A stretch of DNA of 33,061 bases. Source: a virus. How positions within the stretch are numbered: position 1 is the stretch's first letter; every line of letters starts with the position of its first letter. The stretch lies in the IMG/VR virus record IMGVR_UViG_3300025872_000178, positions 1-33,061 of that record; one strand, 5' to 3'. Shown here piece by piece: positions 4,090 through 29,766 of the stretch. A model generated the notes under the pieces. The model did not search any database, was not told where the DNA came from, and saw only the letters and a program-made list of their open reading frames with translations. A program made the position numbers and the translations under genes.

Positions 4090-6855
4090 TTAGACGTCGT
4101 TCTTTCCGTACAAACGGAAGGGTATTCCTACAACTTTAACGTTAGCGACTATCAGAGATCCGCGATCTGTGGTGAGGATTGGCTGTGCTGCGGAGGCGTG
4201 ACCCTTGAGCCGTGCCTTGTGTGCGTAGCTTTGGTGCAGTCCAGCCCGGAAACCGTTCTCGCCAGTCTTTAGCACCGGCAGCGTCGAATAGTCCTCACGA
4301 TAGGCCGTCAGGAAGTCGTCGTTGGCGTTGGACGTGTTGTACGCGCTGTATCCGTATTTGTAGTAGAGCGTCCGGTCCTTGGTGACGTTCTCGGCGATGT
4401 CCAAGCTCTCGGAGACACCATCAAAATCCACGCTGATGTCGTAGCGCGTGTCCCAATTCCGAAGTTCCAGATGAAGATCTGTCCACTGCTTGTGCTCGAC
4501 GGCATCTCCTGTGTATCCCCTGAACTCAACTCGGGTCGAGATCTGGTAGGACGTGCCGGTGGCGTTCCGGTCGAACAGAGCGTCCTTGTCGAAGTTGTGG
4601 ACGTAGCCCGACTCGTCCGCGAACACCAGCCGTTCGGTGCCTGAGACGATCACGCGCTCGAAAAACTTGGGATTGAGCAACTGACCTTCCCAATACCCTT
4701 CCCACGCTTGGTTCAAGAAGTTGTAGCTCAGGACCCGGTCGTTGGTGCCGTCTCCGCCTTCAGTCGGGTGGGCCAATAGATAGCGGTTGTCGAAGTAAGC
4801 CGCGCAGGACTTTTCCCAGTTCGTCTCGTCGATGTCGTCCACGAGGTTCTGAACCGAGTCCGACAGCGGCAAAATCACCGATTGGCTGACACCGTACTCG
4901 GTCTGCTTCAGCGAGATGATGCCGCGCTGCGATAGAAAGATCAGATCGGAGCCAGTGTTGACCACGCTGTTAGGTGCAACGCAGCCGAACTCACGGGTGA
5001 CCTCGGTGAGCCGCACCGCGCTCAGATCGCCGTACAGGTTCTCAACCGCCAGAACCGACCGCTGCTTGAAGATGACCAGCGTCGTGTTGTTGAAAGCGGC
5101 GATGGCAACCACACGGTCATTGGTTCCGGTGTTGAGCTTGAAGTCGTTGGTGACCTTGGCGTAGTGCAACGGATCCAGCACGTCCGAGACGGCGAGGAAA
5201 TCGTTGCCATAGATCATCAGCAGCCGGTTCTGGAAGTACAGACCCTCACGGCCAGCCGGGATGTTGGCTCCTGATGCGCTGGACTTCTTGATGGTGCCGG
5301 TGCCGCTTCCGGTGATGTCCACCAGCGTGTTCGGCATCGCGATGGTGACCGTCGGCGCGGAGCTGTAGCTGCCCGGGTTGGCCACATTCACCGAAGTGAC
5401 CTTGCCTTCACTCAACGTCGTCGTGGCAGTTGCAGCACCACTGGAGAACGTCACTGCAGGAGCCGTCAGATAGCCCTTGCCTTGGTTCAACACTGTGTAT
5501 GTGGCAATGCCTGTCGGAGGCGCTCCAGAGGCAAGATTGGCGATTGCAGTGGCCCTCTGCGCGTCATTGAGGCTGTCGGTCTCCTCGGTGTCGCCTTGGA
5601 ACAGCCGCAGAGTGTTCTCGTCGACCGGGTAGACGTAGTAGATGCCGTCCAGAGCAACCGCAGATGGACCAGTAACCGTGCAGTTGCTGATGGTAACCTG
5701 ATCTCCGGGAACGAAGTTGTGATTCGGAACAGTTACCGTGTCCGCAGTAGCATCCGCAGAGACTATCGACTGTGAAGCCGGAACCCGATCGAATCCTTTG
5801 TCCAGAGCCTGCACCTCACTGCCGGAGGCGTAGCTGGACTGCATGATGAGCGGAAGCCCGTCGTTCTGGTAGCTCTCCAACCCCTGCGTGATGTCGTAGC
5901 TGGTGGTGTTGTTCTGCAGCTCCAGCCAGAAGCGATTGGCGCTGGTCAGACCCGTAGCCAAGTCGAGCTTGTTGGTGCCAGCCCTAGCATTGCCCTCGGT
6001 CAGATGCAGGGTCACCGCGGTGCCGACCACGTTGATGTAAACACCGAACCCTTGTCCGGATGCAGTAGCTCCAACCCACAATGGCTTCTGCGTACCAGTC
6101 TGACCAACGATCACTCGGTCACCCGTCTGAAGGTCAGGTGTAACGTTGAGCGTTATGGTGTCTGTCGTCGCGTTAACGTCGGTGCCATTGAAGTAGTACC
6201 GCGCAGGACCCGGACGCAGCATGACCACCGAATCGCCGCACTGAATCAGCCGGACGTCGTCGTAAAAGTCGTGGCCATTCATCGGGATCTCCAGATGGGC
6301 CTGATTAGGACGCAGCAAGAAGACACGTCCCTGACCGCCGTCCGTGGTCCTAGCCACGTTGGAGGCGACGATGAGCGACTGCGTTCCGGTGGTCTTGTCC
6401 CGATACTTCAGCAGCGCAACGATGTCGGTGATTCCGGTCGTCGATGAATAGTAGGTAAAAGTCTGAGGGTTCGGAGTGGTGAACGAGTAGGCACTGGTAC
6501 TCATCACCGCGTTTGTGTTGTCCGACGACTTGGACAAGAGCCGCGTGCCGTTCTTGAACACCAGCTCGTTCGACACCTGATTGCAGGAGATGATGGTGTT
6601 GACGGCAACCTGCGACAACCCAACCGCAGTGTTGACCGTGCTGCTGCCATCCACGTTGGCTGTGAACGTGCCGTTGACCCACAGGCCACCCCACTTCGGA
6701 CGCACCACGCCCCAGCGATTCTTGATGTTTTGATCCTCGAAACGTCTATTGATAGCCAGCGAGACGTACTTGGGTGGCAACAGATCAGCGTTGATCCGTG
6801 AGTTCATCCCAAGGAACCCGTCATCCTGACCAACCAGTTGAGGAATGTCTGGCAT
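4090..6855 (-). CDS. Large tail protein (tail nozzle / tubular protein B-like)
   Basis: A 921-residue protein starting MPDIPQLVGQ, with an N-terminal region (INRRFEDQNIKNRWGVVRPKWGG) followed by long beta-rich sequence. Blocks such as VFLLRPNQAHLEIPMNG, YFQNRLLMIYGNDFLAVSD, VVAIAAFNNTTLVIFKQRSV and DLIFLSQRGIISLKQTEYG have the hydrophobic-strand rhythm of the beta-propeller seen in tail-nozzle proteins of podoviruses (T7 gp12-type and relatives). Length and position right after the tail-tube/connector gene agree with that role: the distal tube through which DNA leaves. A short insert near residues 440-520 (TVLNQGKGYLTAPAVTFSSG) looks like a fibre-type repeat. Assignment rests on pattern and order, not on a diagnostic motif. 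Confidence 0.7.
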   Translation of the reverse strand: MPDIPQLVGQDDGFLGMNSRINADLLPPKYVSLAINRRFEDQNIKNRWGVVRPKWGGLWVNGTFTANVDGSSTVNTAVGLSQVAVNTIISCNQVSNELVFKNGTRLLSKSSDNTNAVMSTSAYSFTTPNPQTFTYYSSTTGITDIVALLKYRDKTTGTQSLIVASNVARTTDGGQGRVFLLRPNQAHLEIPMNGHDFYDDVRLIQCGDSVVMLRPGPARYYFNGTDVNATTDTITLNVTPDLQTGDRVIVGQTGTQKPLWVGATASGQGFGVYINVVGTAVTLHLTEGNARAGTNKLDLATGLTSANRFWLELQNNTTSYDITQGLESYQNDGLPLIMQSSYASGSEVQALDKGFDRVPASQSIVSADATADTVTVPNHNFVPGDQVTISNCTVTGPSAVALDGIYYVYPVDENTLRLFQGDTEETDSLNDAQRATAIANLASGAPPTGIATYTVLNQGKGYLTAPAVTFSSGAATATTTLSEGKVTSVNVANPGSYSSAPTVTIAMPNTLVDITGSGTGTIKKSSASGANIPAGREGLYFQNRLLMIYGNDFLAVSDVLDPLHYAKVTNDFKLNTGTNDRVVAIAAFNNTTLVIFKQRSVLAVENLYGDLSAVRLTEVTREFGCVAPNSVVNTGSDLIFLSQRGIISLKQTEYGVSQSVILPLSDSVQNLVDDIDETNWEKSCAAYFDNRYLLAHPTEGGDGTNDRVLSYNFLNQAWEGYWEGQLLNPKFFERVIVSGTERLVFADESGYVHNFDKDALFDRNATGTSYQISTRVEFRGYTGDAVEHKQWTDLHLELRNWDTRYDISVDFDGVSESLDIAENVTKDRTLYYKYGYSAYNTSNANDDFLTAYREDYSTLPVLKTGENGFRAGLHQSYAHKARLKGHASAAQPILTTDRGSLIVANVKVVGIPFRLYGKNDV

Positions 6856-7778: not shown

Positions 7779-8045
7779 TCACCACGCTTTGCAGGACCAA
7801 TACTTCGCCGACAGCTTGGTGCCGGGATTGTCGCAGCCATGACGAGCACGGAAGGACGCTCGACGCTCCGGGATGTGCTTCTTGATGGTCATGTTCGGAT
7901 CCCCGAAACGGACCAGCCGCACTTGATCTCCCTCCTTGGCCAAGACAGCAAACTTCTTGGACTCACCGGGAGTCCGTTTCGGCTTGTTGTAGCCGGAGAA
8001 GCGTTGGCCTTTGTAGTTAATCACGTCAGTCCTTCGGGAGCGCAT
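7779..8045 (-). CDS. Small conserved phage protein (DUF6321-like)
   Basis: An 88-residue basic protein. The block from about residue 30 to the end (KKFAVLAKEGDQVRLVRFGD, PNMTIKKHIPERRASFRARH, then CDNPGTKLSAKYWSCKAW) is a pattern I know from many phage and prophage genomes as a conserved protein of unknown function, recalled as DUF6321. Two Cys residues flank the KLSAKYW core and could bind metal, which is a guess. It overlaps the end of the upstream lipoprotein gene and precedes the tail-tube gene by 3 nt. Its exact start is uncertain because the first 25 residues overlap that gene. Confidence 0.75.
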   Translation of the reverse strand: MRSRRTDVINYKGQRFSGYNKPKRTPGESKKFAVLAKEGDQVRLVRFGDPNMTIKKHIPERRASFRARHGCDNPGTKLSAKYWSCKAW

Positions 8046-8241
8046 ACCACCCTGCAGGCAGCACTACGCGGTTGGAGGATCTGACGCTCTGCCCCTTTGA
8101 GTCGAGCACCCAGACCCGAACTTTCACATCCTCGGCCAACCTTACCGGCTCACCGCTTGGGACCAGTATCACCCGAGTCGCGCACCCGCTGCTCATGCTG
8201 GCGAATACGATCCAGCAGCTTGTCACGCAGGCCCGGATCAC
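8026..8241 (-). CDS. Small lipoprotein, outer-membrane spanin-like (Rz1-type)
   Basis: The mature part reads CATRVILVPSGEPVRLAEDV onward and ends VVLPAGWYALPKD, a pattern seen in small phage lipoproteins of lysis cassettes. With a GTG start at 8241 the product begins MIRACVTSCWIVFASMSSGC: a positive residue, a hydrophobic stretch and a lipobox-like SSGC, so the Cys at position 20 could be lipidated. The -3 residue is Ser, not the preferred Leu, and alternative starts (TTG 8286, ATG 8196) exist. Much of the gene is nested out of frame inside the upstream spanin-like gene, the classical Rz/Rz1 arrangement. Expected role: link the outer membrane to its inner-membrane partner and fuse the membranes at lysis. 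Start uncertain. Confidence 0.65.
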   Translation of the reverse strand: MIRACVTSCWIVFASMSSGCATRVILVPSGEPVRLAEDVKVRVWVLDSKGQSVRSSNRVVLPAGWYALPKD

Positions 8242-8323
8242 GCTTGGCGTCTTCACTGGTCTGGTCCTTTCGCAGCAGGTACTCAATGAACTTGAGAACC
8301 GCCAAGACCACCTGCTCGATCAC
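8150..8323 (-). CDS. Inner-membrane spanin-like protein (Rz-type)
   Basis: With the GTG at 8323, which overlaps the preceding stop as GTGA, the product is 57 residues: a short hydrophobic helix near the N-terminus (IEQVVLAVLKFIEYLLRK) followed by a charged helix rich in Asp, Lys, Arg and Glu. This is the shape of an inner-membrane spanin, though shorter than lambda Rz. It lies directly after two holin-like genes and the downstream lipoprotein gene starts inside it in another frame. An in-frame extension to 8371 exists but begins with a Ser run copied from overlapping coding sequence, so I prefer the coupled start. Function is inferred from architecture and neighbours. Confidence 0.6.
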   Translation of the reverse strand: MIEQVVLAVLKFIEYLLRKDQTSEDAKRDPGLRDKLLDRIRQHEQRVRDSGDTGPKR

Positions 8324-8505
8324 GGAGCTGGAGGAGGAGTGACGGCCTTCTTCTTGGACCACACGCCCCAAGCCGCAGCAGCGAGCGTAATAACCGCGCC
8401 AACGATCTCGGGAAGCTGGTCAGCATTGACAAGGCCCTTGGCCACCAAGAAACCGCCAGCAGCACTCAGAACGTGACGGATAAGGGATTTGATCGAGTCA
8501 TTCAT
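8320..8505 (-). CDS. Holin-like membrane protein (Pam3-gp28 type)
   Basis: A 61-residue protein MNDSIKSLIRHVLSAAGGFL... with one or two hydrophobic helices (about 10-24 and 32-48), a polar turn (NADQLPE) and a basic C-terminus KKKAVTPPPAP. The pattern of SIKSLIRHxLSAxGGFLVAKG then AWGVWSKK matches my memory of the Pam3-gp28 family of putative phage holins. Holins form inner-membrane holes at a set time and trigger lysis. The ATG overlaps the previous holin-like gene by 8 nt, and its TGA overlaps the spanin-like GTG. Two adjacent holin-like genes may be holin and antiholin. Confidence 0.8.
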   Translation of the reverse strand: MNDSIKSLIRHVLSAAGGFLVAKGLVNADQLPEIVGAVITLAAAAWGVWSKKKAVTPPPAP

Positions 8506-8692
8506 TGGAGTCCTTTTTCTCTTTGAGCTTCTTCCGCACCCACTTGTAGAAGGCCATCACCGCGAAAAACGCACCCACCGCAGCCGTGATGAACTGCAGG
8601 ATCGTGGTGAGCGTCGGAAGCAATGAAATGATGGTCATCACACCCGCAGCGGCCAATAGTCCACCGGGGCCATTGTGAGCTGTGGCGTCCAT
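8498..8692 (-). CDS. Second small membrane protein, holin or antiholin candidate
   Basis: From ATG 8692 the product is 64 residues, MDATAHNGPGGLLAAAGVMT..., with two hydrophobic helices (about 10-28 and 31-50) joined by a very short turn and a strongly basic/acidic tail RKKLKEKKDSNE. This fits a class II holin. An upstream in-frame start at 8716 would add eight residues but overlaps the end of the preceding gene. The next gene is another holin-like protein, so one may restrain the other. No endolysin gene lies in this cassette. Confidence 0.7.
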   Translation of the reverse strand: MDATAHNGPGGLLAAAGVMTIISLLPTLTTILQFITAAVGAFFAVMAFYKWVRKKLKEKKDSNE

Positions 8693-8693
8693 C

Positions 8694-8942
8694 TTAGTAC
8701 ATGCGATTGTGCGCAATGAAGGTTCCAGCGGAGGCAGCCACCGAGGTGAATACCCCGGGGATCTCGGTACCAGCAGCGATGGACACGCTGGTCGGGAAGT
8801 TGGTGATATTACCAGAGACCGCGCTGAACGTGCAGGCAGTCACGCACTGGATGCGCTGAAAGTTGCCAGTGACGGCACTCGTGTCGGTATTGGCAACGCC
8901 GCCGTACTCACCGGCAAGCTGACGATTGGCTCCTACATTCAT
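8694..8942 (-). CDS. Small virion-associated protein, likely decoration or tail component
   Basis: An 82-residue protein starting MNVGANRQLAGEYGGVANTD. It is Ala/Thr/Ser/Val-rich with no charged clusters, and appears beta-rich: the middle FQRIQCVTACTFSAVSG and the end GVFTSVAASAGTFIAHNRMY alternate hydrophobic and small residues. The opening xGEYGGVAN followed by a beta fold resembles small structural proteins found among phage tail genes, but I cannot name a family with confidence. It sits between the DUF7936-like gene and the holins. Confidence 0.65.
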   Translation of the reverse strand: MNVGANRQLAGEYGGVANTDTSAVTGNFQRIQCVTACTFSAVSGNITNFPTSVSIAAGTEIPGVFTSVAASAGTFIAHNRMY

Positions 8943-25591: not shown

Positions 25592-25806
25592 GTTGGGTAT
25601 ACGCCTCTCCTTCCATTCTGAATCCTGAACTTCCTCTGTTCAACCGTTCCCATGTCGATGCCTTTGCGGATTAACCTGATCGCGTGAGCTATACTGATTC
25701 CCCACTCTGTAGCCAGTTGCGACATGGTTTTCCACCCGCTCGGTACAACCTCCGGCTGACACGCGATAGCCTCCTTCAGGCTCTTTAGAAGTTTGGCAGA
25801 GTCCAT
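25522..25806 (-). CDS. Small HTH (winged-helix-like) DNA-binding protein
   Basis: From ATG 25806 (MDSAKLLKSLKEAIACQPEV...) the product is 94 residues. The segment SGWKTMSQLATEWGISIAHA then IRLIRKGIDMGTVEQRKFRI is an HTH with a wing (tmSQLAxEwGIS-x-A-x-x-x-I-R), and the C-terminus is a basic Ser/Thr/Lys tail. The first 21 nt overlap the metallophosphoesterase; an in-frame extension to 25890 is mostly that gene's sequence in another frame, so I chose the shorter start. Likely a regulator of the neighbouring replication unit. Confidence 0.65.
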   Translation of the reverse strand: MDSAKLLKSLKEAIACQPEVVPSGWKTMSQLATEWGISIAHAIRLIRKGIDMGTVEQRKFRIQNGRRGVYPTWHYTAKSEETKSKETRSSRTRK

Positions 25807-26534
25807 TGCTGCTCGTTCTGTGGCCACTGGTGAAGGTAGAGCTGGGCGCTGCTGTCCGAGTACTCTCCGAAGACGATGCCATGGCTCCACGCCAAGGTTG
25901 AGCGGCGGCGATGAGCGTACTCCATGGCAGGAAGATCGGCCAACGTTCCGGGGGACAGCGCGACCGGATTGTCACTCCTGCGACCGTAAGCGATACCAGC
26001 CCGGTGGGCATGAGCCACGACAACATTCCCGAAGGTCTCGGCGGAGTCTCTGAGGTAGTTCTCTCCGTAGAGGATACCGTGACCCCACTTGTAGCCTCCG
26101 AGGCTGAACCAACAATCTGGCAGGACTCCATACTTCAGGATCTTGACCCGACAATGTTTCTCGATCGGTGCCATCATCTTCTCCCAGACCGCCTCAGCGA
26201 AGCCACGGATGACCGCGTTGTGGTGGTTGAGGTATTGTCGAGCACGCTCGTCGTGGTTCCCGATCGTGAACACCGTCGGCTTGAGCTGGTTGAGGAACTT
26301 TGCGCCTTCACCGATGTCGTCGAGGTAGTCATCGGCTGCATCGGCTTGGTTGGGGTTGCCCAGTGAGCCTGCTCGGAGTGCCGCCAGATCGTATGCGTCT
26401 CCAAGATGGATAACCTCGTTTGGTTTGAAGCGTTCCCTGAAGCGTAGCACCGCCTCCAGCGCCTTAGGATTGGCTCTGGACCCATGGGAACAGCCTATGG
26501 CCATCACCCGTTTGCGGGCCTTGCTGATGTTCAC
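25785..26534 (-). CDS. Calcineurin-like metallophosphoesterase, first metal Asp replaced
   Basis: A 249-residue protein (GTG start) with motifs at: C15-S-H17-G where the usual D-x-H is expected (Asp replaced by Cys), G45-D46-x-x-D49, GNHDE at 92-96, H152, and A-H175-A-H177. The family hydrolyses phosphomono- or diesters, including nucleotides and 2',3'-cyclic ends, using two metals. In phages such enzymes may act in nucleotide or RNA metabolism or in defence evasion. The Cys15 substitution would weaken one metal site or alter the metal; H17 and the others remain. Located between small genes and the HTH gene, ahead of the replication unit. Confidence 0.85.
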   Translation of the reverse strand: MNISKARKRVMAIGCSHGSRANPKALEAVLRFRERFKPNEVIHLGDAYDLAALRAGSLGNPNQADAADDYLDDIGEGAKFLNQLKPTVFTIGNHDERARQYLNHHNAVIRGFAEAVWEKMMAPIEKHCRVKILKYGVLPDCWFSLGGYKWGHGILYGENYLRDSAETFGNVVVAHAHRAGIAYGRRSDNPVALSPGTLADLPAMEYAHRRRSTLAWSHGIVFGEYSDSSAQLYLHQWPQNEQQWTLPNF

Positions 26535-26791: not shown

Positions 26792-26921
26792 GGTTCTTCT
26801 TGTATTGTTCGATTTCTTCTAAGGCTATCTTGATTGCTAATGGAGTCGGTTCATCAGCACCGCATAGGATGCCAAGCCGCTCCTGCAGTCGGTACTGGAT
26901 CTCAATGTCCAGCTCGGTCAC
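26757..26921 (-). CDS. Small 54-residue helical protein
   Basis: GTG 26921 to TGA 26757 gives MTELDIEIQYRLQERLGILC..., followed by PLAIKIALEEIEQYKKNHAS. The GTG overlaps the preceding stop as GTGA, and the frame fills an otherwise empty 126-nt gap, which supports it. It is helical and charged, with no recognised domain. The end overlaps the next gene by 35 nt. Confidence 0.65.
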   Translation of the reverse strand: MTELDIEIQYRLQERLGILCGADEPTPLAIKIALEEIEQYKKNHASNPEVQPAR

Positions 26922-27448
26922 GGCACCCTCCGCAACTTCACGGCGTCTCCCTCCGGTATCACCACCGCAGCACGCAGCATGCAGGCATTGGTGACGAGCA
27001 CCGGCGTCTTGTAGAGCGCAGACAGGGCTGTGGGTTCCTTGCCATCTAGCGTGTAGCGCACCGGCAGGTTGCCCAGCGAGCAGACCAGACGGATCTGGCT
27101 AGGTCCACGGATGTCCACGGTGTCCCCGCGCACCTCGGTGTTGTTCACAAAGATCCGGATGACTCGCTGCCAACGCACCTTGTAGAGCGCAGAGTGACCG
27201 CTGGTGCTCTCCACACGATACGTTCCGGCATCAGCCTCCTGTGCCGCTGGGATCTCAAGGACGCGGTTAGTAGCGCCCGGGATTGGATGGCCACCCAGAG
27301 ACCACTGATAGTCCTCCGCGGTGTGCGGTGCTTCCAGACGCAGTGGCAGGTTCTCCAGCGCGATCTGGGCCGAAGCAGAGAAGGCAACGCAACTGACGAG
27401 TAATCCTCGGATGTTCATGTAACAAAAACTGGTCAGTGTTTGTTTCAT
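26918..27448 (-). CDS. Secreted protein with Ig-like and chitobiase-C-terminal-like domains
   Basis: From ATG 27448, which overlaps the previous stop as ATGA and follows a strong AAGGAGG, the product is 176 residues. The N-terminus (MKQTLTSFCYMNIRGLLVSC...) has basic residues and a hydrophobic stretch ending ASA-Q, a likely Sec signal cleaved at about residue 27. An Ig-like domain (about 37-95) shows Y47-x-W49, IPGATNRVLEI and D73-A-G75-x-Y77. A second beta domain (about 129-153, PVRYTLDGKEPTALS) matches chitobiase/hexosaminidase C-terminal domains. Both are glycan/surface-binding folds common in host secreted proteins. It may modify the cell surface after infection or be a virion decoration. 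Confidence 0.7.
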   Translation of the reverse strand: MKQTLTSFCYMNIRGLLVSCVAFSASAQIALENLPLRLEAPHTAEDYQWSLGGHPIPGATNRVLEIPAAQEADAGTYRVESTSGHSALYKVRWQRVIRIFVNNTEVRGDTVDIRGPSQIRLVCSLGNLPVRYTLDGKEPTALSALYKTPVLVTNACMLRAAVVIPEGDAVKLRRVP

Positions 27449-27711
27449 GGCTTGGCCTCCTTGGATGCTTTCCAATGTTGGATTAGCTTTTCTCCCCTTT
27501 CAAATAACAGGTCCCTCAGAAGCTCAATCGTATCTTTGAGTTCACGATTCTCTAGTTCCAAGCAAGTCATGCTCCTAGCCCACTGAGGCTTGAAGGTCTC
27601 GCAGTAACTGGAACCGCACCGATAGCCTTGGATCCCGTTCTGGTTGCGATCCGCAGGCAGGCCGCAGTGAGGGCAGACCAATTTGGTGGGCTCAACAATA
27701 TGGTCGCTCAC
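27445..27711 (-). CDS. Zinc-ribbon plus coiled-coil small protein
   Basis: An 88-residue protein. C13-x2-C16...C32-x4-C37 (CPHCGLP... YRCGSSYC) makes a zinc-ribbon; then residues 49-80 (CLELENRELKDTIELLRDLL) form a leucine-zipper-like coiled coil. The coil resembles that of the 29615-29872 gene (ENERLKDTIGFLLDKL). The ATG overlaps its neighbour's stop as ATGA on both sides. It could be a small regulator or scaffold; unknown function. Confidence 0.65.
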   Translation of the reverse strand: MSDHIVEPTKLVCPHCGLPADRNQNGIQGYRCGSSYCETFKPQWARSMTCLELENRELKDTIELLRDLLFERGEKLIQHWKASKEAKP

Positions 27712-27944: not shown

Positions 27945-28192
27945 TTGGATTCCTTTGTAAGCATCAACTTCAGCTTCTTGTTTTCTTTCTTCATCTTCCC
28001 AAGCTCTCTTCCGAGCATTGATAGTTTGCCGTGGTATTTACATATCTGTTCGTTAAAAGACTTCGATTCCTTATCAAGTCTCCTCACCTCGTCTTCTATG
28101 TGTGCGGCACGGTCAGTTTCAATCACCCACTTGCCATCAGCGGTCTTGAACTCGTGAAGGTACAGTGTTGATTGAGCGCGTCTCTCCATCAT
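27941..28192 (-). CDS. Small coiled-coil protein
   Basis: An 83-residue protein: MMERRAQSTLYLHEFKTADG, GKWVIETD, then HIEDEVRRLDKESKSFNEQI and a lysine-rich coil (KLSMLGRELGKMKKENKKLK). Same layout as the 78-residue gene downstream, so it appears to be a paralogue with a longer, more basic coil. ATGA overlaps both sides. Function unknown. Confidence 0.65.
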   Translation of the reverse strand: MMERRAQSTLYLHEFKTADGKWVIETDRAAHIEDEVRRLDKESKSFNEQICKYHGKLSMLGRELGKMKKENKKLKLMLTKESK

Positions 28193-28464
28193 CTGGTTCC
28201 CCTCCTGTAGCGGTTGATGGTTGTCTGTGAGACTCCCAGCTTTAGTGACGCCTCGGCGGCAGATACCTCAGCAGGCAGCGCCTTGATCTGGTCTGCTATG
28301 TACTGCGGGATGCTTGGCCTTCCGATCTTGCTGGGCCTGTAGTTAACCGGGTTACGCAACTCGGCCAACTCCTGCTCCATCCGGCGTGCCTCGGCGATCA
28401 ATGACGGCATCGGAAGCTCTCTGCCCAGCAGCCGGAAGGTGTGGTTGTCTGTACGTGGTGTCAT
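28189..28464 (-). CDS. Small HTH protein
   Basis: From ATG 28464 (MTPRTDNHTFRLLGRELPMP...) the product is 91 residues. The C-terminal segment ALPAEVSAAEASLKLGVSQT then TINRYRRGTR is a helix-turn-helix with recognition helix SQTTINRYR. The middle has YRPSKIGRPSIPQYIADQIK, similar to resolvase-type HTH leader sequence (GRPS), so it may be a homeodomain-like DNA binder. Its ATG overlaps the stop of the 29-residue peptide as ATGA. Longer in-frame starts exist but would overlap that peptide gene. Confidence 0.7.
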   Translation of the reverse strand: MTPRTDNHTFRLLGRELPMPSLIAEARRMEQELAELRNPVNYRPSKIGRPSIPQYIADQIKALPAEVSAAEASLKLGVSQTTINRYRRGTR

Positions 28465-28550
28465 GCTCCGATCCTCCCGAGTACGTATCCCAGTGTCATC
28501 AGGGCCACTACTCCCCAGAGTATCAGGGCCATCTTCAGGTTCTGGTTCAT
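28461..28550 (-). CDS. 29-residue membrane peptide
   Basis: ATG 28550 to TGA 28461 encodes MNQNLKMALILWGVVALMTL then GYVLGRIGA. It is one hydrophobic helix (about residues 6-24) with a basic residue at each end. Both ends carry ATGA stop-start overlaps, with the 69-residue gene before it and the HTH gene after it, which is strong evidence that it is translated. Function unknown; possibilities are a holin-like or antiholin peptide, or an inhibitor of a host membrane protein. Confidence 0.7.
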   Translation of the reverse strand: MNQNLKMALILWGVVALMTLGYVLGRIGA

Positions 28551-28756
28551 GGCGTCTTCCCCCGTGTGTTCTTGTTGCGCCTGAACGACAGCTTGCTTCG
28601 GTGCTCGAAGGCTTTGAGTTCCTCAGCAAAGGCTGGATCGGTCAGTCCGCGACGTTGAAGCCAAGCCTTGTACTTCGCGTTCATGTATTCGGGGCTAATC
28701 ATCGGCTCCGCAGGAAGGGAGTCCGTGATCTGCATTGATGGTGGGCGCTGTCTCAT
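28547..28756 (-). CDS. Small basic protein
   Basis: From ATG 28756 (MRQRPPSMQITDSLPAEPMI...) a 69-residue protein: a helical middle (YMNAKYKAWLQRRGLTDPAF, EELKAFEHRSKLSFRR) and a basic tail (KNTRGKTP). A longer frame up to 28861 would run inside the lysozyme-like gene in another frame, so I chose the shorter start, which has an A/C-rich leader (CAACACAACACAGACACC) and no Shine-Dalgarno. Its TGA overlaps the ATG of the 29-residue peptide. Unknown function. Confidence 0.65.
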   Translation of the reverse strand: MRQRPPSMQITDSLPAEPMISPEYMNAKYKAWLQRRGLTDPAFAEELKAFEHRSKLSFRRNKNTRGKTP

Positions 28757-28805
28757 GGTGTCTGTGTTGTGTTGCGCTGCAAAGTTTGTAGGTGATGTCC
28801 ACCCC

Positions 28806-29144
28806 TCAGAAGTCGAGGCCGCTGATAGCCTTGACGTTTTTCTTCCAGTTGCGGTTGCCAACGGGATCCGCCGACTTGGGGCAGTAGCGGTCAGCGAGGA
28901 AGTCGAGGAACTTGCCGGGTTTGCCAGCGGCCTGCCAGCGACGGTGGTTGTTGCGGATGGTGTTCAAGCAGACCTTGCGAGCCTCTGTGGCGTCTTTGAC
29001 TTTGACCGACAGGATGCCGTAGGGAGCTTTGGCCCTAGCACCACCCTCAACACGGTAGATGGCGTCAGCGATGCGGTTGGCGTCTAGTGCGAGAGCGTTG
29101 GTTGCGACGAGAGCGAGCAGGACGAGATACTTGGTAAGATACAT
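28806..29144 (-). CDS. Sec-exported lysozyme-like protein (endolysin candidate)
   Basis: A 112-residue protein. The N-terminus MYLTKYLVLLALVATNALAL is a signal peptide, with cleavage likely after ALA. The remainder has ADAIYRVEGGARAKAPYGIL, then VCLNTIRNNHRRWQAAGKPG, FLDFLADRYCPKSAD and NRNWKKNV. The E33-G-G...PYGI segment is like the catalytic Glu and substrate strand of goose/SLT-type lysozymes. It would cut peptidoglycan in the periplasm, exported without a holin, or serve as a SAR-type endolysin. It lies 20 kb from the holin/spanin cassette, beside repeats in its leader. Tentative; no other endolysin is visible in the window. Confidence 0.7.
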   Translation of the reverse strand: MYLTKYLVLLALVATNALALDANRIADAIYRVEGGARAKAPYGILSVKVKDATEARKVCLNTIRNNHRRWQAAGKPGKFLDFLADRYCPKSADPVGNRNWKKNVKAISGLDF

Positions 29145-29148
29145 ACGA

Positions 29149-29175
29149 GTTACTGGTTAAGAGGTTACTGGTTAA
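29149..29175 (-). repeat. Tandem repeat in the leader of the lysozyme-like gene
   Basis: GTTACTGGTTAA occurs at 29149-29160 and again at 29164-29175, a 15-bp period. On the minus strand this reads TTAACCAGTAAC twice, ending 5 nt before the lysozyme-like ATG, where a Shine-Dalgarno would normally be. It may be an operator, a translational control site, or a -35/upstream element. Confidence 0.5.
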
Positions 29176-29217
29176 ACTAAGTCCGCGTGTGGGATGCGCG
29201 GCCCCCGTGGTGAATTT

Positions 29218-29454
29218 TTAGTCTAGGTTGTCAAAGTCTACTGTGACTCCACCTCCCAGATTCCGGTAAACCCTGCACTTGCACCCTATCACGATCGCAT
29301 CGAGATGCTTTCTGAGTCCTCGGATGTTTCCGGCAGGCAGTGACAGATCGTCTATTCTGACCATGTACCGAGGGAAGCTGCCTGCCGGAGATGGCTTGAA
29401 CGACTTGCAATGATCTAGAATCTGGTTGAGATCGTTGGTGATGCTGAAGGTCAT
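29218..29454 (-). CDS. Small protein of unknown function
   Basis: A 78-residue protein MTFSITNDLNQILDHCKSFK, then PSPAGSFPRYMVRIDDLSLP, NIRGLRKHLDAIVIGCKCRV and GGGVTVDFDNLD. Mixed alpha/beta with one helix (NIRGLRKHLDAIV) and two strands; no known motif. The leader is A/C-rich (AAGTAACCAACAACAAGAAC) without a Shine-Dalgarno. Located between the lysozyme-like gene and the coiled-coil pair. Confidence 0.65.
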   Translation of the reverse strand: MTFSITNDLNQILDHCKSFKPSPAGSFPRYMVRIDDLSLPAGNIRGLRKHLDAIVIGCKCRVYRNLGGGVTVDFDNLD

Positions 29455-29577
29455 GTTCTTGTTGTTGGTTACTTGCTACGGGGAACATGAAACCACAGGT
29501 CTCTCATGCCGTCTACAGAAAAATACAGAAATCTTTCAGCACAGTTCTGACTAGTGTTTACGGGCCTGTCGTGCGTG

Positions 29578-29766
29578 TCAGGACTGCGGCACCTTGCGGA
29601 ACTTCGCTTGGAACTCAGCCGTCCTGCGGATGTAGAGCTTTCCGTTTCGCTCGTAGACCGTGGCCCGCTCCTTCATCTCGCCCACCCTTAGCTCCGCCTC
29701 GCCCCACACGTCCACCACGGTGCTTGGTTTTGTCTTGCACTCCCAGAAGTCGTTCTTCGTTTTCAT
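29578..29766 (-). CDS. Small basic protein overlapping a coiled-coil gene
   Basis: A 62-residue protein MKTKNDFWECKTKPSTVVDV, WGEAELRVGEMKERATVYER, NGKLYIRRTAEFQAKFRK. The third codon positions are strongly G/C in this frame and less so in the overlapping frame, so it is likely the real frame of 29578-29766. It starts inside the coiled-coil gene in the +1 frame. Beta-hairpin-like ERNGKLYIRR followed by a helix; no family recognised. Confidence 0.6.
   Translation of the reverse strand: MKTKNDFWECKTKPSTVVDVWGEAELRVGEMKERATVYERNGKLYIRRTAEFQAKFRKVPQS

Follow-up and report, generated by a model that had tools for sequence, protein, structure and literature searches.

The window, by which we mean the whole 33,061-base virus record that was analysed, carries at 28806-29144 on the minus strand an ATG-initiated gene for a protein of 112 amino acids, whose family we call A (Table 1). 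A preliminary description of this DNA had read the frame as a signal-bearing, lysozyme-like protein, and our analysis bears this out, with a signal-like N-terminus followed by a predicted lysozyme-like fold. Beyond the signal lies a 93-residue domain that includes E33-G-G...P41-Y-G-I. The gene's neighbours serve replication and recombination, and it lies outside the structural block and about 20 kb from the holin and spanin-like genes; this distance had been remarked upon before and is common to relatives. The holins and spanins that the preliminary description placed at 8 kb fared unequally: one protein there matches Phage_holin_10 and another is a two-TM holin-like protein, while the spanin-like pair matches no family.

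Elsewhere in the window, a 185-aa product encoded at 26918-27475 (minus strand) has Ig-like and chitobiase C-terminal-like (CHB_HEX_C_1) domains, an unusual make-up amid replication genes, and a calcineurin-like metallophosphoesterase is encoded at 25785-26534 (minus strand; Pfam E 3.9e-7, PHROG 221 E 1.3e-16).

A repeat pair in the leader had been proposed to control the gene. The pair exists, as TTAACCAGTAAC occurs at both 29149-29160 and 29164-29175. Two copies were present only in L019 and L026 among the 10 close relatives viewed, however, and most of the others had a single copy, sometimes imperfect, beside the ATG. The leader RNA was predicted to fold more weakly than its shuffles (z +1.44), no sigma-70-like promoter was found in 28000-30600, and the window contained no Rfam match. 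We therefore dropped the repeat as a candidate regulatory element. Early expression of the gene, which had been suggested from its position, is a possibility only.

Table 1. Positions of the candidate lysis genes and associated features in the window
Feature	Position	Strand	Basis
Gene for predicted exported lysozyme-like protein, family A	28806..29144	-	ORF, translation, homologs, invariant residues
Signal peptide predicted to be cleavable (residues 1-19, AXA box at 17-19)	29088..29144	-	Sequence reading, hydropathy, short relatives
Predicted mature lysozyme-like domain, residues 20-112	28809..29087	-	AlphaFold2 on residues 19-112 plus structural comparison
Codon of E33, presumed catalytic acid	29046..29048	-	Glu in 63/63 sequences
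Leader repeat pair TTAACCAGTAAC	29149..29175	-	Repeat real; pair not conserved
Downstream small gene marking the locus, conserved part 28550-28735	28547..28861	-	Homolog adjoins G058 lysozyme
Phage_holin_10 (Pam3 gp28 type) holin	8320..8505	-	Pfam E 3e-17
Two-TM holin-like protein	8498..8716	-	Reading of the cassette
i-Spanin-like small protein	8150..8371	-	No family match; architecture and conservation
o-Spanin-like lipoprotein, nested in i-spanin-like gene	8026..8286	-	No family match; architecture and conservation

Family members and the signal-like N-terminus

A direct search of viral contigs with the window protein returned 12 loci, and a small alignment (A1) used as query returned 70, widespread in uncultured phages. 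Because 11 of the 12 loci were 87-100% identical, the 70 loci more distant, and five residues invariant, we regard the reading frame, on sequence grounds, as a real gene and no product of chance. Among 50,697 phage records family A had four matches, and among 72,556 plasmid records it had none. Conservation was assessed in an alignment (A2) of the window protein with 62 of 67 distinct ORFs, L019 being identical to the window. Four sequences (L023, L039, L066, L069) were left out, L064, which is without the N-terminal half, had been dropped earlier, and the GenBank phage relatives L014 and L015 are not in A2. All 63 sequences share E33, G43, P89, W100 and N103; F82, L83, R86, Y87, C88, D93, G96 and N97 are near-invariant. 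The invariant Glu is followed by a [YF]-G-[IV] motif, with one member carrying C at the last position.

The first 19 residues, MYLTKYLVLLALVATNALA, have a single Lys, a core of Leu and Val and, at A17-L18-A19, an AXA box, and by reading and hydropathy they look like a type-I signal peptide, as had been proposed. A hydrophobic N-terminal stretch was present in 50 of the 63 sequences by our own hydropathy threshold; in at least four of the other 13 (L018, L079, L085, L088) the start is uncertain or such a stretch lies farther upstream. Six short relatives of 89-92 amino acids (L051, L052, L055, L056, L059, L063) begin no more than 1-2 residues from the mature start of the window protein, so the signal looks like a detachable module. 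The Leu/Val-rich segment with its AXA box, together with signal-less relatives starting at the mature position, makes a SAR anchor less likely. We make no claim of a disulfide switch, because C59 is kept in only 49 of 63 sequences (C88 in 62) and several signal-less members retain both cysteines. In L044 (7527-8294) and L053 (7521-8294) the family A domain ends proteins of about 255 amino acids with a long N-terminal part, and no signal peptide was seen in the stretch examined.

Cellular relatives were few. A scan of bacterial and archaeal genomes gave three loci. Two, L016:4022-4423 and L017:7995-8381, are homologs of about 61% identity with signal peptides on Verrucomicrobia MAG contigs, where the neighbouring ORFs read as cellular-looking; they may represent a host source or a domesticated phage gene. 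Because such cellular homologs exist, lysis may not be all that the family A gene serves. Among 387 Verrucomicrobiota genomes, a profile search gave four matches, one strong and three at 2e-5 to 9e-4. Verrucomicrobiota as the host is therefore no more than our guess. The third locus, L018:4776-5435, is on a contig labelled Candidatus Aenigmatarchaeota; it is a homolog whose N-terminus has a membrane segment, and the ORFs around it read as archaeal (EF-1 alpha, rubrerythrin-like). Such archaea are not known to have peptidoglycan, so a wall-cutting enzyme on this contig, if it is not misbinned, would need explaining.

Predicted fold

No family was found for the window protein in Pfam, PHROGs, NCBIfam or sequence searches of the PDB. 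None of the 63 members matched Pfam SLT, Phage_lysozyme, Destabilase or Glucosaminidase at E 0.1, and sequence searches of solved structures with family A gave chance matches alone. PHROG 1259, 'baseplate hub and tail lysozyme', was matched weakly by three of the 63 members (best E 0.0052). Nor did we find the family described in the literature searched, which comprised titles and the beginnings of abstracts, mostly of non-subscription papers. Family A is undescribed in the libraries searched, and its likely working mode is one already known from other phages.

The preliminary description had called for structure prediction and comparison with lysozyme folds. AlphaFold2 modelled the full protein with a pLDDT of 89.6 and residues 19-112 with 92.0. 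Compared with 52 chains by VIA-align, the mature model was closest to the glucosaminidase domain of the C. difficile endolysin Ecd09610, which we take to be GH73 (Z 8.0, 2.5 A over 87 aligned residues), although identity was 16% and no sequence-profile match accompanied it. Destabilase followed with Z 7.1 (87 aligned) and 7.0, and the next row fell to 3.9; thus, all three chains with Z of at least 5 were peptidoglycan hydrolases. The full model, compared with 62 chains, again gave destabilase (Z 6.7 and 6.6), then clam lysozyme (Z 4.8). Globins, phycobiliproteins, dehalogenases and further helical folds made up the rest of the structures listed, at low Z. The first row in BFVD was a phage transglycosylase SLT protein (probability 0.98, TMq 0.65, E 0.32), whereas Foldseek on the PDB returned nothing under 0.001 for either model. 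In the mature model the core helix spans 4-15, with the invariant E33 at its end. With moderate confidence, then, the model assigns family A to the lysozyme superfamily, in keeping with the lysozyme-like core first proposed.

The resemblance to i-type lysozymes and destabilase is one of predicted fold; these enzymes have no Pfam match to family A, and a comparison of A2 with an i-type template (A4, a thin one of three PDB sequences) by hhalign gave a probability of 0.65%. We accordingly rejected profile homology to this group. By reading of the two alignments, the mature protein shows RYCP where i-type enzymes have HNGGP, and it has few cysteines, namely two.

Candidate lysis genes and the exchange at one locus

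The preliminary description held that no endolysin accompanies the holins, and a search for one elsewhere in the window recognised none. Among the 48 other ORFs, no endolysin family was found in Pfam, nor in the 25 of 55 families listed from PHROGs, 'amidase' apart. We rejected the latter as an endolysin; its match falls on a 921-aa structural protein (4090-6855) that also matches head-closure families. We extended the search to 50 family A records of about 31 kb or more, namely the window, 47 IMG/VR contigs and two GenBank phages. Phage_lysozyme, Amidase_2 and Peptidase_M15_4 were each found in none of the 50, and SLT in one, below cut-off. That record, G042, is the exception: it has the family A gene plus a second secreted lysozyme. 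GH108 and GH19 gave 0 of 54 each, an uninformative result since the controls were equally silent. Eight further proteins of G002 and G011 contained no lysin domain. G011 is probably complete, judging by a 65-base terminal direct repeat with one copy 11 bases short of the contig end.

The second lysozyme of G042 (L089:1477-1947, minus strand) is a phage lysozyme with a membrane-signal N-terminus that scores 25.9 bits with Destabilase against a Pfam cut-off of 26.2. In the genome part missing from the window, G002 and G011 encode very large proteins of 1309 aa (L185:676-4605) and 1751 aa (L183:5861-11116), both of which carry, close to the C-terminus, an ART-PolyVal ADP-ribosyltransferase domain (E 5e-17 and 4e-19, respectively).

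We collected relatives of the window terminase and read eight of the contigs in full or nearly so. Identity between G058 and the window is 81% in the terminase, 90% in the portal, 77% in the holin and 69-79% in the spanin-like genes, but G058 has no family A gene. Its corresponding slot is occupied instead, immediately ahead of the downstream small gene's homolog, by a signal-less lysozyme of about 115 amino acids, which we call family B. The Pfam scores of this lysozyme, E 4.8e-4 with SLT and E 1.1e-3 with Destabilase, fall short of the cut-offs, and its ortholog in G077 passes the SLT cut-off (E 9.3e-5). The orthologs in G062, G077 and G080 adjoin a Holliday-junction resolvase gene. The absence tests described above can miss divergent lysins, since SLT leaves three of the four scanned family B proteins under its cut-off.

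Thirteen records were tabulated: the window, G002 and, among the best 80 of the 135 matches to the terminase, those of at least 30 kb. Family A was present in eight (window, G001, G002, G003, G011, G014, G016, G060) and family B in four (G058, G062, G077, G080); G081 had neither, and no record had both. The chance of zero overlap is 0.007 if the records are taken as independent, a figure that ignores shared ancestry. Mapped onto the terminase tree, the B label calls for two changes, and none of 200 bootstrap trees gets by with one; the well-supported branches alone, however, force just one change.

This swap at one locus is the best evidence for an endolysin role of family A. The two families share the slot (in G058) or lie nearby, and B likewise has an invariant Glu; B presumably does the same job. 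They differ in that B has no signal in G058 and G077, carries a WNGGP motif and has no detectable profile homology to A. A comparison of A2 with a thin five-row B template (A5) by hhalign gave a probability of 1.9% (E 0.026), around the Glu helix only, and we rejected sequence homology between the two.

The signal-bearing enzyme had been thought to need no large holin holes. Both kinds of enzyme, however, occur with either type of holin. The Pam3-type holin accompanies signal-bearing A in the window, G002 and G011 and signal-less B in G058 and G080; another type (KTTxAGxGxILVAIG) accompanies signal-bearing A in G060 and signal-less B in G062 and G077. The signal-less state is firm in G058 and G077, where no signal could fit into the reading frame, while the frames of G062 and G080 run 24-28 codons farther upstream. 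Signal and holin type thus vary independently, which does not support the view that export spares the phage large holes.

Proposed role and alternatives

We consider it likely that the family A gene encodes the phage's own endolysin, a minimal Sec-exported hydrolase of glycan strands with E33 as catalytic acid, triggered by the holins. The host Sec machinery would export the enzyme, and signal peptidase would remove the type-I signal peptide, residues 1-19. The mature enzyme of about 93 amino acids would then accumulate in the periplasm and wait until the holin pair 20 kb away triggers lysis by depolarising the membrane, possibly also releasing unexported enzyme; the spanin-like pair would complete lysis. 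In this scheme we infer endolysin catalysis, signal cleavage, holin triggering, timing and the bond cut, which may be that of a muramidase, a glucosaminidase or a lytic transglycosylase.

Endolysin genes away from the holin gene are familiar from T7 gene 3.5 and T4 gene e. In this they are like the family A gene, but they have no signal peptide and belong to other enzyme families. Close in working type is Lys44 of Oenococcus phage fOg44, which has a cleavable Sec signal, stays harmless outside the membrane until the membrane potential collapses, and comes from a phage that keeps its holin (PMC6116005, in excerpt). The host there is Gram-positive, and in family A cleavage and holin dependence are what we infer. 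The SAR endolysins P1 Lyz, phage 21 R21 and N4 gp61 are also Sec-exported and depend on holin for release (PMC12642591 and PMC8879335, in excerpt). In these enzymes the anchor is Gly/Ala-rich, has weak hydrophobicity and stays on the active protein uncleaved, whereas the family A N-terminus is strongly hydrophobic, ends in AXA and is absent from some relatives. Since this uncleaved anchor is the well-studied export signal in phages of Gram-negative bacteria, according to excerpts of the same two papers, a signal that is cleaved, as proposed for family A, would belong to a less studied kind. The portion of PMC12596118 available gave nothing on signal peptides.

The secreted lytic transglycosylase Tgl of Kayvirus, a phage enzyme of the lysozyme superfamily with an AXA signal, is encoded apart from the main holin-endolysin pair and possibly early; like Lys44, it does no harm before the holin dissipates the proton-motive force (PMC7150955, in excerpt). 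Family A might similarly be an auxiliary, early secreted wall enzyme that aids or tunes lysis or loosens the wall while another, unrecognised endolysin does the main work. Its place among replication genes, the cellular homologs on Verrucomicrobia MAG contigs and the two lysozyme-like genes of G042 fit such a role, as does the account of Tgl as an additional, early-transcribed secreted enzyme in the available text of that paper. However, Tgl is additional to LysK in Staphylococcus phages, and here no other lysin was recognised beside family A in the window, in G011 (probably complete) or, G042 apart, in the rest of the records; moreover, with A exchanged for B, 12 of the 13 records have a single lysozyme each. 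We therefore think the auxiliary role unlikely.

It is more improbable again that the protein has the lysozyme fold without catalysis and serves a periplasmic binding or regulatory function. The want of any sequence family match and the non-significant Foldseek E-values would suit such a protein, yet they must be set against an invariant Glu that closes helix 1 and has [YF]-G-[IV] after it, the peptidoglycan hydrolases that head the structural comparison, and replacement by a recognised lysozyme at one locus. A virion-associated lysozyme that opens the wall at DNA ejection seems to us hardly credible; the weak PHROG 1259 matches point that way, whereas most members have a signal peptide, and the gene lies outside the structural block and is fused to no structural domain in the window. 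Two members, L044 and L053, do have a long N-terminal part.

Our preferred reading, the phage's own exported endolysin, may form part of a wider picture, which we put forward tentatively and would not expect to hold in every part. Family A would comprise minimal exported endolysins, undescribed in the libraries searched, whose phages infect diderm bacteria, possibly Verrucomicrobiota, and whose signal is really removed, unlike a SAR anchor. Their slot, which is not linked to the holin, would have exchanged exported and cytoplasmic lysozymes repeatedly while the holin cassette stayed constant, so that export signal and holin type would evolve independently.

In conclusion, our analysis gives a likely function to a family absent from Pfam, PHROGs and NCBIfam, in phages otherwise apparently without an endolysin, and adds a very small candidate lysin domain of 93 amino acids. 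The holins are evidently able to serve an enzyme without an export signal. The swap of an exported for a cytoplasmic enzyme at one locus, with the holin cassette kept, offers a natural comparison for the purpose of an endolysin export signal.
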